From an uncultured Hyphomicrobiales bacterium (lineage in GTDB: Bacteria; Pseudomonadota; Alphaproteobacteria; Rhizobiales; Devosiaceae): 32,642 nucleotides of DNA. The notes beneath the pieces are model-generated. The model worked only from the letters and a program-made list of their open reading frames with translations, made no database searches and was not told the DNA's origin. Of this stretch, positions 3,692 through 9,623 are shown one piece after another (the stretch's first letter is position 1; each line of letters starts with the position of its first letter). The stretch lies in NCBI GenBank assembly GCA_903842455.1, contig CAIMLX010000276.1:1-32642 (forward strand), in the 5' to 3' direction. The translations under genes and the position numbers were made by a program.

Positions 3692-5107
3692 ATGGGCTAT
3701 GCTGCGCGGCTTCGAGACTACGTCAGGCGCGGTACCGGCGAGGCAGTGGTCGCCGAGGGGATCTCGCTCAGCTGGGCAGACATGCTGGGCCGGGTTGAAC
3801 AGGGAGCTGCCGGGTTGGCGGCCGCCGGAATCGGACCTGGCGTCGTGGTTGGGGTTACCATTGCCGACGAAGTGGAGCATTTCGTTGCATGCCTCGCCCT
3901 GCTGCGGGTCGGCGCATGGCAAATCGCGCTTGCGACGCACGACCCCGAACTGGAGCGTCAGGCCATCGCGGCCCGTGCCGGCGTAACGCATGTGTTGCAT
4001 ACAGGAAGCGCTCCAACAGCGTCGGTGCTGCCGCACCTCGCCTGGCCGCGCGCCCCAGCGGCGGCGTTGCCTGACGAGCACCCCGAGGGCGGTGTCATGC
4101 TGCGGACATCCGGAACGACGGGAACGATGAACATCGTGCCGCTTAGCGCTGCAGAGCTCTGCGTGCAGGCCGACCGGAACCGCGAGTATGATGGGGGCCG
4201 GCTATTCCGCCCGGCCTCGATCGAGCACAACAATTCCGAGCGTCACCGGCTCTACTGCGCCGCACTGGGCGGAACAAACGTGTTCCGCCCGCCGGGCGCA
4301 TTCGACACAATCGCCTACTGCCGGCAGATGGGAGTCACCACGCTCGATCTCGCCCTGATGCAAGCGGTGGACCTTGCGGCAAAGGCCCGCGGCGAGGCGC
4401 TGGCGGGCGTCGATATCCGCGTCAGCGGCTCGGCAGTGCCATATAAGGTGCGCAGACAAATCGAACAGAATCTCAGCCGGCGGCTGTTCGTCCGCTATGG
4501 TTCGACCGAGTCCGGCACGGTTTCGTTCGCGGGGCCCGGGGAGCACGACGCTCTCGAATCCGTCGGGCACGTCGTCGACGGCATCGCGCTGCAAATCGTC
4601 GACGCGGCGGACCAGCCGGTGCCAGCGGGGCAGGTGGGGCACATCCGGATGCGCGGCGAGGGGTTCGCCAGGAGCTACCTTGACGGAGCCGAACAGACAG
4701 CGCGGCGCTTCCGCGACGGCTGGTACTGGCCGGGTGACATGGGCAGCCTCGCTGTGGACGGTCGGCTGACCATCCATGGCCGGGCCGACGACATGATCAA
4801 CCTCAACGGCGTGAACATCTTTACCGCCGAGATCGAAGGCGCGCTTGAGGCCCATCCGGCGGTGGCCGCAGCGGCTGCCTTGCCGCTGGACTCAGCGGTT
4901 CATGGCCAGATACCGGTGGCCGCGGTGGAGCTGCGGAGCGGCGGGGTGGCCACCGAGCGAGAACTAGTGGCATATGCGCGCGAGCATCTTGCGCTGCGGG
5001 CGCCGAGACGCATCATCATCCTGGATCGCCTGCCGCGCAACGACCAGGGCAAGATCCTGCGGCGCGAGATCGCCAAGCTGTTCCCCAATCCCAGGAGCAA
5101 GAGTTGA
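3692..5107 (+). CDS. Stand-alone adenylation enzyme (acyl-CoA/NRPS-type AMP-dependent synthetase)
   Basis: ANL-superfamily enzyme predicted to activate a carboxylic acid as acyl-AMP, probably for loading onto the carrier protein encoded next. It is 471 aa from the ATG at 3692; an open frame begins at 3608 but that start sits inside the rpsD terminator. Core motifs: A3 P-loop TSGTTGT at residues 139-145, A5 YGSTESG at 269-275, A7 WPGD at 346-349, A8 hinge GRADDMINLNG at 363-373, and the A10 region RNDQGKI with Lys454. The A3 loop continues TMNIVP instead of the common PKG, so the usual P-loop lysine is absent. Its TGA stop overlaps the TTG start of the ACP gene by four bases, so the two are translationally coupled. 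Substrate unknown; no recognised longer pathway surrounds it. Confidence 0.85.
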   Translation: MGYAARLRDYVRRGTGEAVVAEGISLSWADMLGRVEQGAAGLAAAGIGPGVVVGVTIADEVEHFVACLALLRVGAWQIALATHDPELERQAIAARAGVTHVLHTGSAPTASVLPHLAWPRAPAAALPDEHPEGGVMLRTSGTTGTMNIVPLSAAELCVQADRNREYDGGRLFRPASIEHNNSERHRLYCAALGGTNVFRPPGAFDTIAYCRQMGVTTLDLALMQAVDLAAKARGEALAGVDIRVSGSAVPYKVRRQIEQNLSRRLFVRYGSTESGTVSFAGPGEHDALESVGHVVDGIALQIVDAADQPVPAGQVGHIRMRGEGFARSYLDGAEQTARRFRDGWYWPGDMGSLAVDGRLTIHGRADDMINLNGVNIFTAEIEGALEAHPAVAAAAALPLDSAVHGQIPVAAVELRSGGVATERELVAYAREHLALRAPRRIIILDRLPRNDQGKILRREIAKLFPNPRSKS

Positions 5108-5385
5108 CGGAAGCCGAGATACGCCAGGTGATCTCCGACGCGCTAGTCTATGCGGCTGTGCCGCTTTTTGCCGAGAGTGCCGAGCAATCGGATTTTGTCG
5201 CCGGCCGGCGCGATGTGCGGCTGGACGAGTTCGAGATCGATAGTCTCGCAACGATGGAACTGTGCATCGCCATCGAGCTGAACCTCGGCGTCGAAATCGT
5301 GCCGGGTGACCTGACGGAGATAGCAACGCTTGGTGACATCGTCGCGCTCGCTCAGGGGCGGGTGAACGTCGAGGCAGGCCAGTGA
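5104..5385 (+). CDS. Acyl carrier protein-like (phosphopantetheine attachment domain)
   Basis: Small carrier protein of 93 aa, predicted to hold an acyl group as a thioester on a 4'-phosphopantetheine arm. The attachment motif is FEIDSLATMELCIAIE, with Ser47 in the DSL signature at the start of helix II. A second helix region, DLTEIATLGDIVAL, matches the recognition helix III of ACPs. The start is TTG at 5104 and overlaps the stop of the adenylation gene (TTGA); its own stop overlaps the GTG of the next gene (GTGA). This chain of overlaps argues for fixed stoichiometric expression. It is not the housekeeping fatty-acid AcpP: the sequence is divergent and has no fab neighbours. Confidence 0.85.
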   Translation: MTEAEIRQVISDALVYAAVPLFAESAEQSDFVAGRRDVRLDEFEIDSLATMELCIAIELNLGVEIVPGDLTEIATLGDIVALAQGRVNVEAGQ

Positions 5386-6326
5386 ACCTGCTCGACCTCT
5401 ACAATGCCCGCATCGCGGACGCGAACAGCCTCAACGAAGTGAGCCAGGTGCACATTGTGTTCGCCAACTCACTTACCCCGACGGAGATCGTGTTCCTGCA
5501 CGGCAACCTGTTCGCTGGCAGCAAGCACAAGGCGCCGAAGCTAAGTCCGCTCTGCCGGTTCACGCTGCCCCAGTTGCAAGAGGCCGGCCGGCTATGGATC
5601 GACCAGCATCGGGCGATGCTGGCGGAAATCGGCAAGCCGCGTATCGAGCTCTATCGGCGCTATGAGTTACACGATGCCGTAGTGCTGTTTTCGGCCGACC
5701 GGAAGACGCCGCGACGAAACCTCGTGATCTCGCTCACCGGCGCCAACCAGCGGCTGATGATGCCGATTTCCGGGTACCTGCAGAACTTCGATGGCAAGAC
5801 GACCGATATCCTCTACGTGCGCGACAGTAGCCGGCAGGGGTATCGCGGGGGTATCCCGAAGCTCGCTGGCGACATGGTCGAGATCGGACCGGCGTTGACC
5901 AAGCTCGTCGATCTGAAGCCCTATCAGAGAACGGTCACGGTCGGGGTCAGCGCCGGTGGGATTCCGGGGCTGGTGATGGCGCTTCGGCTGGGCCTCGATG
6001 CGACGCTGGTCTGCGGTGGCAGCAGCCCGGAGCGTGGCCAGTTCGACGAGACCGGCGGGGCAAAGCTCACCGACAGGCTGCGGGAGTGGCGGGAAGCATC
6101 GCTCCACACACGAGTGGTCGTTGGCTACGGAGCGCAGGACGAGAAGGACGAGAGCGCTGCGGCCGAAATCGCGCAATGCGTCGCTGGAGCCGAAGTTGAG
6201 CGGATTGCGCTAGACGGCGTCGAGGTCAAGCACAACTTCATCTACAAGCTGTCCGTGGCGGGCCTGCTGCCGGCGTTCATGTCGGACAGGCTCGGGCTGG
6301 CGGACGAGGATCGGGCTGGCGGCTGA
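5382..6326 (+). CDS. Alpha/beta-hydrolase-like protein of the adenylation-ACP cassette
   Basis: A 314 aa cytosolic protein (no signal peptide or membrane segment visible) of no family I recognise by name. The C-terminal half reads like an alpha/beta hydrolase: strand RNLVISLTG near 112-120, nucleophile elbow GVSAGG with Ser190, a candidate acid in GYGAQDE (Asp253) and a candidate base in VKHNF (His284), in the canonical order Ser-Asp-His. The N-terminal roughly 100 residues carry no obvious motif. The GTG start overlaps the ACP stop by four bases. By context it could be a thioesterase or acyltransferase that releases or transfers the acyl group from the carrier; this is inference. Codons such as tta, cta and gta appear somewhat more often than in neighbouring genes. 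Confidence 0.7.
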   Translation: MNLLDLYNARIADANSLNEVSQVHIVFANSLTPTEIVFLHGNLFAGSKHKAPKLSPLCRFTLPQLQEAGRLWIDQHRAMLAEIGKPRIELYRRYELHDAVVLFSADRKTPRRNLVISLTGANQRLMMPISGYLQNFDGKTTDILYVRDSSRQGYRGGIPKLAGDMVEIGPALTKLVDLKPYQRTVTVGVSAGGIPGLVMALRLGLDATLVCGGSSPERGQFDETGGAKLTDRLREWREASLHTRVVVGYGAQDEKDESAAAEIAQCVAGAEVERIALDGVEVKHNFIYKLSVAGLLPAFMSDRLGLADEDRAGG

Positions 6327-6433: not shown

Positions 6434-7111
6434 TTAGAATGCGACCTTCAGGCCGATGTCGAGGATGCTGGCCGAGGCCGAGCCGGTGTTCTCATCGCCG
6501 TCAACGTCCGTCAGGCTGACTTCGCCGGTCGTCAGGTAACGGTAGCGGCCGGTCAGCGAGATATCTTCGGTGAGCGCGAAGCTAACACCGGCACCGACCT
6601 GCGCGGCCCAGGTGACAGCGCTGTCGTCGATCGACGCAGTCGGAAGGGCCGGGAATTCAGCATCCACAGCGAGCGACGCCACGCCGACGCCACCACCGAT
6701 GAACGGGCTGATGCCGCCCAGGTCGAAGCCGTACCAGCCATTCACCATGGCGTAGGTGATCGAGGCGCTACCGTCGACGTCTGCGTCCACGCCGCCATAC
6801 GTTACGCCGCTTGCGTCGCCGTTGAGGTAGCCGACCTGACCTTCGATCGACAGGCCGTTGCCGAAGTCATAGCCGAGCGAGCCATCGATGCCGTAGCCGG
6901 TATCGAAGCGCATCGAGCCGGGTGTGTCGCCGACGCTCGACACGAAATCGAAATCGTTGATCATCGAAACGCCGCCGAAGATCGAGGCGTAGAAGTTGCC
7001 GGCGGCGACCGGGTCGCTCATGTCGACCGGTGCGTAGACCTGGAGGTCGGCCGCGAAGGCGGTTCCGGTCAGCAGCGACGCGGCGATGAAGGAAAGTGCG
7101 AACTTGGTCAA
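6434..7111 (-). CDS. Outer-membrane beta-barrel protein with signal peptide
   Basis: Predicted small OmpA/Omp25-type outer-membrane barrel of 225 aa. The N-terminus is a Sec signal peptide (TKFALSFIAASLLTGTAFA) with cleavage expected before ADLQVY. The mature part alternates amphipathic strands with Gly/Asp-rich turns, for example GYGIDGSLGYDFGNGLSIEGQVGY (two parts) and SPFIGGGVGV. It ends LDIGLKVAF, the C-terminal phenylalanine signal used by the BAM machinery. The start is TTG at 7111, chosen because AGGGG lies 7 bases upstream and the signal peptide begins exactly there; the longer open frame to 8065 is a shadow of sbmA. Structural or adhesive roles are typical for the family; function here is not determined. 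Confidence 0.88.
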   Translation of the reverse strand: MTKFALSFIAASLLTGTAFAADLQVYAPVDMSDPVAAGNFYASIFGGVSMINDFDFVSSVGDTPGSMRFDTGYGIDGSLGYDFGNGLSIEGQVGYLNGDASGVTYGGVDADVDGSASITYAMVNGWYGFDLGGISPFIGGGVGVASLAVDAEFPALPTASIDDSAVTWAAQVGAGVSFALTEDISLTGRYRYLTTGEVSLTDVDGDENTGSASASILDIGLKVAF

Positions 7112-7118
7112 GATCAGG

Positions 7119-7125
7119 CCCCTTT
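7119..7125 (-). promoter_or_regulatory. Ribosome binding site that fixes the TTG start of the OMP gene
   Basis: On the minus strand the sequence reads AAAGGGGCCTGATC followed by TTG. The AGGGG core is 7 bases from the TTG, an ideal distance, and there is no ATG or GTG in frame nearby that would keep the signal peptide. Confidence 0.65.
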
Positions 7126-7197
7126 GGATTCGTGGAAACACGAGAGGGTCAGGTGCGCTGCGCCGGGTCAACTCAATACCCGGGACGCGGGGCCGAG

Positions 7198-7317: not shown

Positions 7318-8610
7318 CTATTGCGCTGGGGCCGGCTCCGCGGGTGGATGGTCGGCGTGCCAGGCCGCGAGGAAGCGGGGATCGTCGTAGTCGTTGGCGA
7401 TCGGCGCGTCCTTCGGGATATAGCTCTCGAACAGCCGCAGGCGCTTGTAGACCGAGATCAGCGAGATGATGGTGGTCCACGAACTGGCGAAGAACTTGAA
7501 CGAGTCCTCCACCTGGCCGAAGGCGTTGTTCACCTGCTGGAACAGCCCCAGGGTCAGCGCGCCAGTGACGATCGACGGTCCCATGGCGACAAGCGGCACG
7601 AAGTTGGCGCCCTGCAGATAGGCGTAGCGCGCGATGTTGAAGTAGAGATAGTGGCGGTAGAGCCGGAAGTAGTTCGACTGCACGTTCTTGAACAGCTCGC
7701 GGATGGTCGGTGGCCCGGCCCGGTCGGCATGGTCTTCGCCGTAGACCAGTTCCTTGCGCAGCGACGCCTCGACCCGCTGGTTGTGAAACTCGAGGCCGGG
7801 GAGCTTGAAGCCCACCGTGGCGAGCAGCACCGTTCCGAAGGCCGACGAGACCAGCGCCACCCAGACCAGACTGCCGTTCACCGCCCCGAAGAACGGCAAC
7901 TCGGTAATGTTCTCCGACAGGCGCCAGAGCAGCGGCAGGAACACCACCAGCGTCATGATCGAGGCGACGAAACTGACGGCGAGCCCCTCGACGATATTGG
8001 CGAAACGCTGCGTGTCTTCCTGGATACGCTGGCTCGCGCCTTCGATGCCTCGCAGGAGCGGCCACTGGCTCATGTAGTAGAAGGTCATCGCCGTGCGCCA
8101 GCGGAAGAGGTAGTGGGCGATGAAGAAGGCGTTCAGCACCAGCACGGTGATGTTCGGGATCAGCACGAACGCGACCGTCGACATCTCGGTGTAGAACTGC
8201 TCGATGGTCACGCTGTTGGGCGTGGTCAGGGCGGACTGGATCAGGTTGTAGAAGGTGCCGTACCAGTCGTTGAGCCAGGCGCTCACCTGTACGTTGAAGT
8301 AGACGACTTCAACGATGGTCACCGAGCCGACCACACTCCACCAGAACCAGCGGCGATTGCCGCCGATCCAGTACCAGGGAATGCAAAACAGGTAGCCGGT
8401 GACGAGGATGTACTGGTAGAGCCAGACCTTGTCCGAGCTGAAGAACGGCTCTGGCTGGGCCTCGGTCGGGGCGATGCCCAGCCACGGGCCGAGGCTGAGG
8501 ACGCTCTGCAGCGCGGGGCCGATGGTGAACCACACCGTCATGCACAGCGCGGTCCACACTACCGCTGCCGGGAAGAAAAGCCTTGGATTTGGGAAGAACG
8601 AGCGGAACAC
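7318..8610 (-). CDS. sbmA: SbmA/BacA-like peptide antibiotic transporter
   Basis: Inner-membrane transporter of 430 aa that by homology imports peptides (for example proline-rich or NCR peptides, microcins, bleomycin) using the proton gradient; BacA is needed by rhizobia in legume nodules and by Brucella in chronic infection. The N-terminus MFRSFFPNPRLFF, the segment MTFYYMSQWPLLRGIEGASQR (first part), the IQEDTQRFA motif and the late NVQSNYFRLYRHYLYFN region are characteristic of the SbmA/BacA family. About seven or eight membrane segments are visible and there is no ATPase domain, so it is the short SbmA type rather than an ABC fusion. It is alone on its transcript, ended by a strong terminator. 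Whether it is functionally closer to BacA or SbmA cannot be told by eye. Confidence 0.92.
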   Translation of the reverse strand: MFRSFFPNPRLFFPAAVVWTALCMTVWFTIGPALQSVLSLGPWLGIAPTEAQPEPFFSSDKVWLYQYILVTGYLFCIPWYWIGGNRRWFWWSVVGSVTIVEVVYFNVQVSAWLNDWYGTFYNLIQSALTTPNSVTIEQFYTEMSTVAFVLIPNITVLVLNAFFIAHYLFRWRTAMTFYYMSQWPLLRGIEGASQRIQEDTQRFANIVEGLAVSFVASIMTLVVFLPLLWRLSENITELPFFGAVNGSLVWVALVSSAFGTVLLATVGFKLPGLEFHNQRVEASLRKELVYGEDHADRAGPPTIRELFKNVQSNYFRLYRHYLYFNIARYAYLQGANFVPLVAMGPSIVTGALTLGLFQQVNNAFGQVEDSFKFFASSWTTIISLISVYKRLRLFESYIPKDAPIANDYDDPRFLAAWHADHPPAEPAPAQ

Positions 8611-8750
8611 AGCGACTCCTGGGGGCTCCGGAAACTCGGTGTCATCTAACTGACTAAATTCGCAACCCGCAAGGAATGGAACGCACCTTGCTCCGAAGTT
8701 ACCCAGCCGTAAGCTTCCGGTAAGCCGCCGCCTCTGGTATCAGCGGGCGC

Positions 8751-9623
8751 ATGAACGAGATTGTCCCCGCCGCCAAGATCGAATCCGACGCCGAAGAGCT
8801 GTCCGGGGCGCATCCGCTGTTTGCCTCGGCGCCGCGGTCGGTGGCGTTCAACAAGCTGCGCAAGCGGCTGATCCGCAACGTGCGCGAGGCGATCGACACG
8901 TTCGGCATGGCGCGGCCGGGCGAGAAGTGGCTAGTGGCGATTTCGGGCGGCAAGGACAGCTACGGCATGCTGGCGCTGCTGCTTGACCTCAAGTGGCGCG
9001 GCCTGCTGCCGGTCGAGCTCATCGCCTGCAACCTCGACCAGGGGCAGCCGAACTTTCCCAAGCATATCCTGCCCGAATGGCTGACCGCCAACGGCATCGC
9101 GCATCGCATCGAGTACCGCGACACCTACTCGATCGTCACCAGCACGCTGCCGGCTGGCGCGACCTACTGCTCGCTCTGTTCTCGGCTCAGGCGCGGCAAC
9201 CTCTATCGCATCGCGCGGGAGGAGGGCTGCTCGGCCCTCGTGCTGGGGCACCACCGCGAGGACAGCCTCGAGACCTTCTTCATGAACATGTTCCACGGCG
9301 GCCGCCTCGCCGCGATGCCGCCTCGGCTGATGAACGACGAGGGCGATGTCGAGGTGCTCCGCCCGCTGATCTATTGCGGTGAACCAGACCTCGAGAAATT
9401 CGCCGAGCATATGGCGTTCCCGATCATCCCCTGCGATCTCTGCGGCAGCCAGGACGGGCTCGAGCGCAACGCCATGAAGGCGATGATCGACGATATCGAA
9501 AAGCGCATGCCGGGCCGCAAGGACATCATGATCCGCGCCTTGGGCAATGTGCGCCCCAGCCACCTGCTGGACCCCAAGCTGTTCGACTTTCACGGCCTCG
9601 CCGGAACGAAGGCCGGCGACTGA
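8751..9623 (+). CDS. ttcA: tRNA 2-thiocytidine(32) synthetase TtcA
   Basis: ATP- and Fe-S-dependent enzyme that thiolates cytidine 32 of tRNAs. The 290 aa protein has the PP-loop SGGKDS at residues 65-70, and the cluster-binding cysteines Cys140 and Cys143 in [12 protein letters not shown] with a further pair Cys228/Cys231 in PCDLCGSQ. It also carries [16 protein letters not shown] near 166-181 and the ending [16 protein letters not shown] expected for TtcA. The ATG at 8751 is preceded by AGCGGGCGC, a weak ribosome binding site. The gene is divergent from sbmA with a 140-base gap that should contain both promoters. Together with the TrmJ-like gene (nucleotide 32 ribose methylation), this window holds two enzymes that by family act on tRNA position 32. 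Confidence 0.95.

Follow-up and report, generated by a model that had tools for sequence, protein, structure and literature searches.

Small systems in which a ligase supplies a carrier protein with cargo for the cell surface are best known from two settings. According to PMC12930378 and PMC3783018, the D-alanylation of teichoic acids by Dlt employs a stand-alone ligase, DltA, which loads the small carrier DltC, and the attachment of glycine to lipid A by AlmEFG of Vibrio cholerae combines a ligase, a small carrier, and a transferase to a surface molecule, with the two reports naming the Alm ligase and carrier opposite ways round. Here, we describe a cassette of comparable shape at positions 3692-6326 of a 32,642-nucleotide stretch of DNA (the whole of contig CAIMLX010000276.1, assembly GCA_903842455.1; hereafter the window) from an uncultured Hyphomicrobiales bacterium of the Devosiaceae. 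This trio encodes an adenylating ligase of the ANL superfamily (ANL), a carrier protein, and a third protein with a predicted alpha/beta-hydrolase fold (HYD). It resembles AlmEFG in having three genes, for an adenylating ligase, a small carrier, and a third protein that by analogy would transfer the carried group, and it resembles Dlt in its stand-alone ligase and small carrier. However, a lysophospholipid-acyltransferase domain is ascribed to AlmG in PMC3783018, whereas HYD lacks any Pfam match and has a predicted alpha/beta-hydrolase fold instead, and the ANL has Asn180 in place of the amino-binding Asp, which may set it apart from the amino-acid-specific ligases of AlmEFG and Dlt. Furthermore, DltD (PF04914) was not found in the window's genome by a search that matched 2 of 14 control genomes, and the carrier reaches only 13.8 bits with the dltC model (cut-off 52.35). 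Since the third protein has another fold and DltD is absent, the trio is not a member of either system, although it is nearest to both by shape. Among the open-licence papers listed by literature searches, none names a system of this shape as far as the listings tell.

The reading frames and coordinates of the three genes, all on the forward strand, hold on re-checking, including the 4-base overlaps TTGA (ANL/carrier) and GTGA (carrier/HYD) described in the original prediction. The ANL (3692..5107, 471 aa) scores above the cut-offs of PF00501 (117.5 bits) and PF13193 (47.3 bits), and this combination of AMP-binding and C-terminal domains places it in the ANL superfamily, as does a predicted model with an ANL fold (predicted local distance difference test [pLDDT] 87.5; predicted template modeling [pTM] score 0.82). 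Its adenylation motifs TSGTTG, GDxG, GRxDD, and PRNxQGK are intact, with Lys454, Asp349, and TSGTTG kept in 8 of 8 aligned rows, and it is predicted to load the carrier. The latter (5104..5385, 93 aa, TTG start) is a PP-binding carrier by PF00550 (27.7 bits, cut-off 20.8) and has the expected DSL serine (Asp46-Ser47-Leu48), its phosphopantetheine site Ser47 being encoded at 5242-5244 and, together with Asp46, invariant in 10 of 10 aligned sequences. A single match to an ACPS-type phosphopantetheinyl transferase in the window's genome could supply the phosphopantetheine. By eye, a hairpin followed by T residues was seen 3' of the upstream rpsD, and the trio may therefore have a promoter of its own.

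HYD (5382..6326, 314 aa, GTG start) matched nothing in Pfam or NCBIfam even at E<=1, including any hydrolase or thioesterase family, nothing among PDB sequences at E<=5 as a single protein, and nothing in PHROGs or PADLOC at E<=0.1. Membership in a named family, which would have given the third protein a job already characterized, is thus ruled out for the libraries searched. A profile of the HYD family reached PDB sequences with a best E of 0.011, all matches being ordinary hydrolases and the rest weaker. The predicted model (pLDDT 91.8, pTM 0.91, from 12 aligned sequences) shows an alpha/beta-hydrolase fold behind a helical N-terminal part, with the catalytic residues in the order typical of this fold: Ser190 (codon 5949..5951) at the nucleophile elbow between strand 183-189 and helix 190-203, Asp256 past the next-to-last strand (244-250) at the start of helix 254-266, and His284 past the last strand (271-275). 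Among 26 close relatives (profile E<1e-50, with the profile built from 15 of them and the duplicates L032, L033, and L137 excluded; L and G numbers denote loci and genomes, respectively), Ser190 and Asp256 occur in 26/26 and His284 in all 25 that reach this column, as L060 stops earlier. Of the triad proposed earlier, Ser190 and His284 are therefore upheld, whereas the suggested Asp253, an Asp in 1 of the 26, gives way to Asp256.

The trio is a real gene module, far beyond chance, because its Devosia copies keep 25-75% protein identity and because it recurs in other groups, namely in Caulobacterales, Cellvibrionales, Sphingomonadales-like, betaproteobacterial, and Stella records. A genome-contig scan with the ANL alignment returned 48 loci, 11 of which encode ANL, carrier, and HYD together (L055-L058 from Devosia or Hyphomicrobiales, and L060-L066); in L071 all the forms are distant, and the remaining 36, whose ANLs are for the most part farther removed, are without the set in the stretch available. 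The names attached to L064 (Kuenenia), L065 (Rhizobium), and L060 (Desulfomicrobium) may not fit the organisms. One gene order is common to L061, L064, and L065, one of them a Sphingomonadales contig, while L063 is arranged as carrier-HYD-ANL, with an ANL that is incomplete in the available stretch, and the ANL of L139 (Stella) lies on the opposite strand. Among relatives, junctions read by eye show a 4-base overlap between ANL and carrier in 8 of 10 cases (exceptions L024 and L026). Between carrier and HYD, it is seen in 9 of 11, while the overlap of L025 is one base and that of L024 is not clear. According to a scripted rule, 25 of the 26 close relatives have a carrier gene 5' of HYD in the same orientation, and the last, L043, has one as well, a long open frame in the neighbor having misled the rule; an ANL is found within 2.5 kb in 16 of the 26. 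In more remote HYDs, several of which have a long N-terminal part, the carrier is often missing. Two large groups appear in the ANL tree as well as in the HYD tree (Devosia/Caulobacterales/Cellvibrionales, and the Sphingomonadales-like set with L060), as expected for a unit inherited together. The self-contained trio of the original prediction is borne out: its genes are conserved together across several groups of bacteria, and no nonribosomal peptide synthetase (NRPS), polyketide synthase, or fatty-acid locus was seen around it.

The HYD family is rare. Within the class, its profile matched 10 of 385 genomes (E<=1e-8), and within the phylum 4 of 398 (E<=1e-15). The genome of the window is among those counted, as are distant relatives that have no carrier. 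The single HYD protein matched 12 of 397 genomes of the order (E<=1e-3). Single-HYD scans of genome-contig and viral-contig collections gave no lead. A role as a defense system was rejected, as PADLOC gave no match, and so was one as phage or plasmid cargo, with no phage match and only one weak plasmid match (E 4e-3).

Within the genus, 19 Devosia genomes including that of the window (G000) were compared. The genes for rpsD and an SbmA/BacA-family transporter (PF05992; window 7321-8610, reverse strand) are facing neighbors on one contig in 18 of the 19, and lie on separate contigs in G012. The complete trio is present in 6 of the 19 genomes, in five of which (G000, G001, G003, G014, and G017) it lies between rpsD and sbmA; the sixth, G013, has an ANL without carrier and HYD at this site and the full trio on another contig, and G001 has two ANLs in tandem. 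In 12 genomes, the gap measures only 132-840 bases between matched ends and holds no trio-type ANL at E<=1e-40, with small genes in the longer gaps not searched for. The trio is therefore an accessory insertion into an rpsD-sbmA gap that is short and trio-free in most Devosia. The outer-membrane protein (OMP) gene that was seen to flank the trio on the other side (OMP_b-brl by domain match; 6437-7126, reverse strand) is not part of the conserved unit, as gene calls in the rest of the trio-bearing Devosia gave none like it in the rpsD-sbmA interval. A functional link to SbmA/BacA was likewise rejected, since sbmA adjoins rpsD in the 12 trio-free genomes too.

With respect to the acid, the A4 region of the ANL carries the signature IEHNNSxRHRLYC..GG (residues 177-194; 4220..4273, forward strand), in which Glu178 is invariant in 15 of 15 aligned rows. 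In amino-acid-activating adenylation (A) domains, the Asp of the FDVS motif binds the alpha-amino group, and a profile alignment to an NRPS A domain places Asn180 at this Asp. As Asn180 replaces the amino-binding residue, the substrate is probably not an ordinary alpha-amino acid, judging from these alignments, and may instead be an aryl acid, a hydroxy acid, or one of another kind. The Devosia rows share Asn at this position with L060, L062, and L063, whereas L061, L064, L065, and L066 have a different residue. The stand-alone A domains of the aryl-acid enzymes DhbE and EntE also have Asn at the matching place, position 235, according to PMC10296737, but no siderophore genes were recognized beside the trio, and the likeness in fold is only general (1md9 at rank 49). 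A structure search with the ANL model gave matches scattered over the superfamily (MatB, McbA, MenE, and DhbE), and because of this spread they do not settle the substrate.

Taken together, the explanation that we put first, and to which we give an even chance, is that of a compact module for carrier loading and acyl transfer, in which the acyl group would end up on an acceptor that is probably a glycan, lipid, or protein of the cell surface. In the mechanism we infer, the ANL would adenylate a carboxylic acid with ATP and load it as a thioester onto the phosphopantetheine arm at Ser47 of the carrier, after which HYD, through Ser190-His284-Asp256, would take the acyl group on Ser190 and hand it to the acceptor. 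The original prediction had left it at a carrier-bound acyl group that the hydrolase releases or transfers. Transfer is favored over plain hydrolysis because there is no modifying enzyme beside the window's trio, so that hydrolysis would waste ATP, and a surface molecule is favored as acceptor because several relatives lie near glycan, sulfotransferase, or OMP genes. In a Caulobacterales metagenome-assembled genome, HYD is fused to a Sulfotransfer_4 domain (L062 10655-12178; PF17784, 1.9e-33) and followed by a gene for an Stf0 sulfotransferase. Furthermore, the trio at the rpsD site of G003 is separated from sbmA by an RgpF-type rhamnan-synthesis gene (PF05045, 2.2e-23; L024 6770-7693, forward strand). 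Glycosyltransferases and an ABC-2 exporter are found in L045, a Wzt-type ATPase in L066, and a polysaccharide pyruvyl transferase in L050, which has distant HYD and carrier forms only; a weak distant HYD match (E 4e-3) falls in a capsule/3-deoxy-D-manno-octulosonate (Kdo) locus of a Novosphingobium plasmid. In G013, the trio is two genes away from a homologue of a Legionella-OMP-like protein, with a glycosyltransferase near, and in G017, homologues of these two proteins (38% identity for the first and, over 78 residues, 77% for the second) lie beside a unit of sulfotransferase, cytochrome P450, carrier, and HYD. This glycosyltransferase occurs in 6 of the 19 Devosia genomes, comprising 4 of the 6 with the trio and 2 of the 13 without. 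Sulfotransferase genes also adjoin P450-carrier-HYD in L027 and L045, and several lie some kilobases off in L143.

Several observations weigh against this explanation. The glycan-gene neighbors are raw observations with no background rate set beside them; no glycan gene was recognized beside the trio at the rpsD sites of the window, G001, G014, and G017 (among called genes, not all of them Pfam-scanned), and the Sphingomonadales-like trios are surrounded by metabolic genes, where no connection to glycans was seen. The best Foldseek match of the HYD model in the PDB is AntI, followed by many esterases, and with template modeling scores of about 0.4-0.5 and root-mean-square deviations of 5-14 A, these matches cannot tell a transferase from a hydrolase. 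Moreover, the ANL of L043, on a long branch, and its HYD fall in different groups of the two trees. Finally, in four Sphingomonadales-like loci, HYD is nearly as conserved as the ANL (ANL 69-84%, carrier 70-83%, HYD 63-76%), so that HYD does not evolve fast everywhere. In favor of the explanation, all 15 pairings of the six Devosia copies give a lower identity for HYD than for the ANL (25-48% versus 51-75%, with the carrier at 36-68% and the G013 ANL cut by the contig end), as if the donor stayed constant and the acceptors varied. Also in its favor, surroundings vary between loci, so that the trio itself is the conserved thing. Within Devosia, the ANL and HYD trees differ as to which copy, that of G003 or that of G017, is nearer to the window's (both 99% support in the Shimodaira-Hasegawa-like approximate likelihood ratio test, SH-aLRT), a conflict that could reflect reassortment or loss after a tandem duplication as in G001.

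The Legionella-OMP-like protein was seen together with a GT1 glycosyltransferase at four Devosia loci (L027 7179-13581, L026 3-3473, L161 6766-11705, and L164 673-5449), each adjoining a trio, a sulfotransferase-P450-carrier-HYD unit, a sulfotransferase, or a P450. In L026, L161, and L164, a family-less protein of 144-156 aa is encoded 5' of the OMP. An assignment of this protein to the HlyC-type acyltransferases was not supported, as no Pfam match at E<=0.01 was obtained, the only NCBIfam match, for one of the three, was unrelated (E 0.05), and the one tried against the PDB gave no match at E<1.

In the rival account that survives best, though we consider it less likely than transfer, HYD is a dedicated thioesterase: the carrier-bound acid would be altered by an enzyme encoded elsewhere, such as an oxygenase, and then released as a small building block. 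NikP1/NikQ/NikP2 of nikkomycin biosynthesis work by such a load-alter-release logic of ligase, carrier, P450, and hydrolase, and the sister units of the trio come near to it, since in 9 of the 26 close HYD relatives a P450 gene within 1.5 kb replaces the ANL alongside the carrier, and these HYDs form one clade (98% SH-aLRT in a quick tree); L044 has neither ANL nor P450 near HYD. The proteins in question are divergent P450s by the sequence evidence: those of L027, L028, L045, L047, and L049 lack a Pfam match as single sequences and that of L046 is sub-threshold, but a profile of six such proteins matches solved P450s from 1.8e-11 down, including the biotin-pathway P450 3ejb at 1.1e-7, and FGxGx[HR]xCLG[RK] is kept in all seven sequences read. 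In L143, the P450 match is split across two frames. Devosia G010 was found to encode a P450-carrier pair (L149 7064-8505) in which no HYD was found, at the same place as P450-carrier-HYD in G014 (L028). Release is also favored by L043, where an aKG-HExxH-type (alpha-ketoglutarate-dependent) beta-hydroxylase (7769-8767; TIGR04267, 1.8e-25) is encoded directly 5' of a carrier-HYD-ANL set, possibly a third kind of carrier-acting oxygenase unit, by an ordinary P450 fragment (PF00067, 1.7e-43) beside a glycosyltransferase on another contig of the window's genome, and by the description of AntI as a polyketide-shortening enzyme. However, no oxygenase was recognized beside the window's trio, so that no P450 accompanies it as in the nikkomycin system, and HYD has no match to a thioesterase family of Pfam or NCBIfam at E<=1. 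Furthermore, the special P450 was not found at E<=1e-10 in the window's genome and in 2 of the 5 other trio-bearing Devosia, and co-occurrence of P450 unit and trio (3 of 19 genomes, with 6 having the trio and 4 the P450 unit) was rejected as a link, not being significant (one-sided hypergeometric, 0.071).

The same sister units allow the acyl-transfer reading to be taken further, to a claim that we regard as doubtful: HYD would be the founder of a new family of serine acyltransferases that depend on a carrier. Combined with exchangeable front ends (ANL, P450, or aKG-HExxH hydroxylase, each having its own carrier), it would build a modular system, present in several Gram-negative groups, for decorating surface glycans or outer-membrane proteins with activated acids, a Gram-negative counterpart of Dlt and Alm with a fast-changing acceptor enzyme in Devosia.

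It is improbable that the trio has merely become separated from an ordinary natural-product cluster whose remaining genes lie elsewhere in the genome: while pathway parts could sit on other contigs of an assembly in 280 pieces (4.56 Mb), the trio recurs in several different contexts, and the three PP-binding matches of this genome lie in open frames of 83, 259, and 178 aa, leaving no carrier-bearing frame longer than 259 aa, a result that comes from the PP-binding search and not from one aimed at condensation or ketosynthase domains. Equally remote is a metabolic acyl-CoA ligase with a neighboring carrier and an editing or scavenging thioesterase but no special product, for although the best scores of the ANL are with acyl-CoA ligase models, far below their cut-offs, and its fold is like those of MatB, McbA, and MenE, carrier and HYD are kept with the ligase in mostly overlapping genes that have large tree groups in common.

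Small adenylation-carrier-transfer systems such as Dlt and Alm alter bacterial surfaces. Rare, and gained or lost at a single genomic site, the cassette provides a defined set of three proteins for biochemistry on its substrate and acceptor, and such work would assign an identity and a function to the family of HYD, a protein that fits none in the libraries searched.

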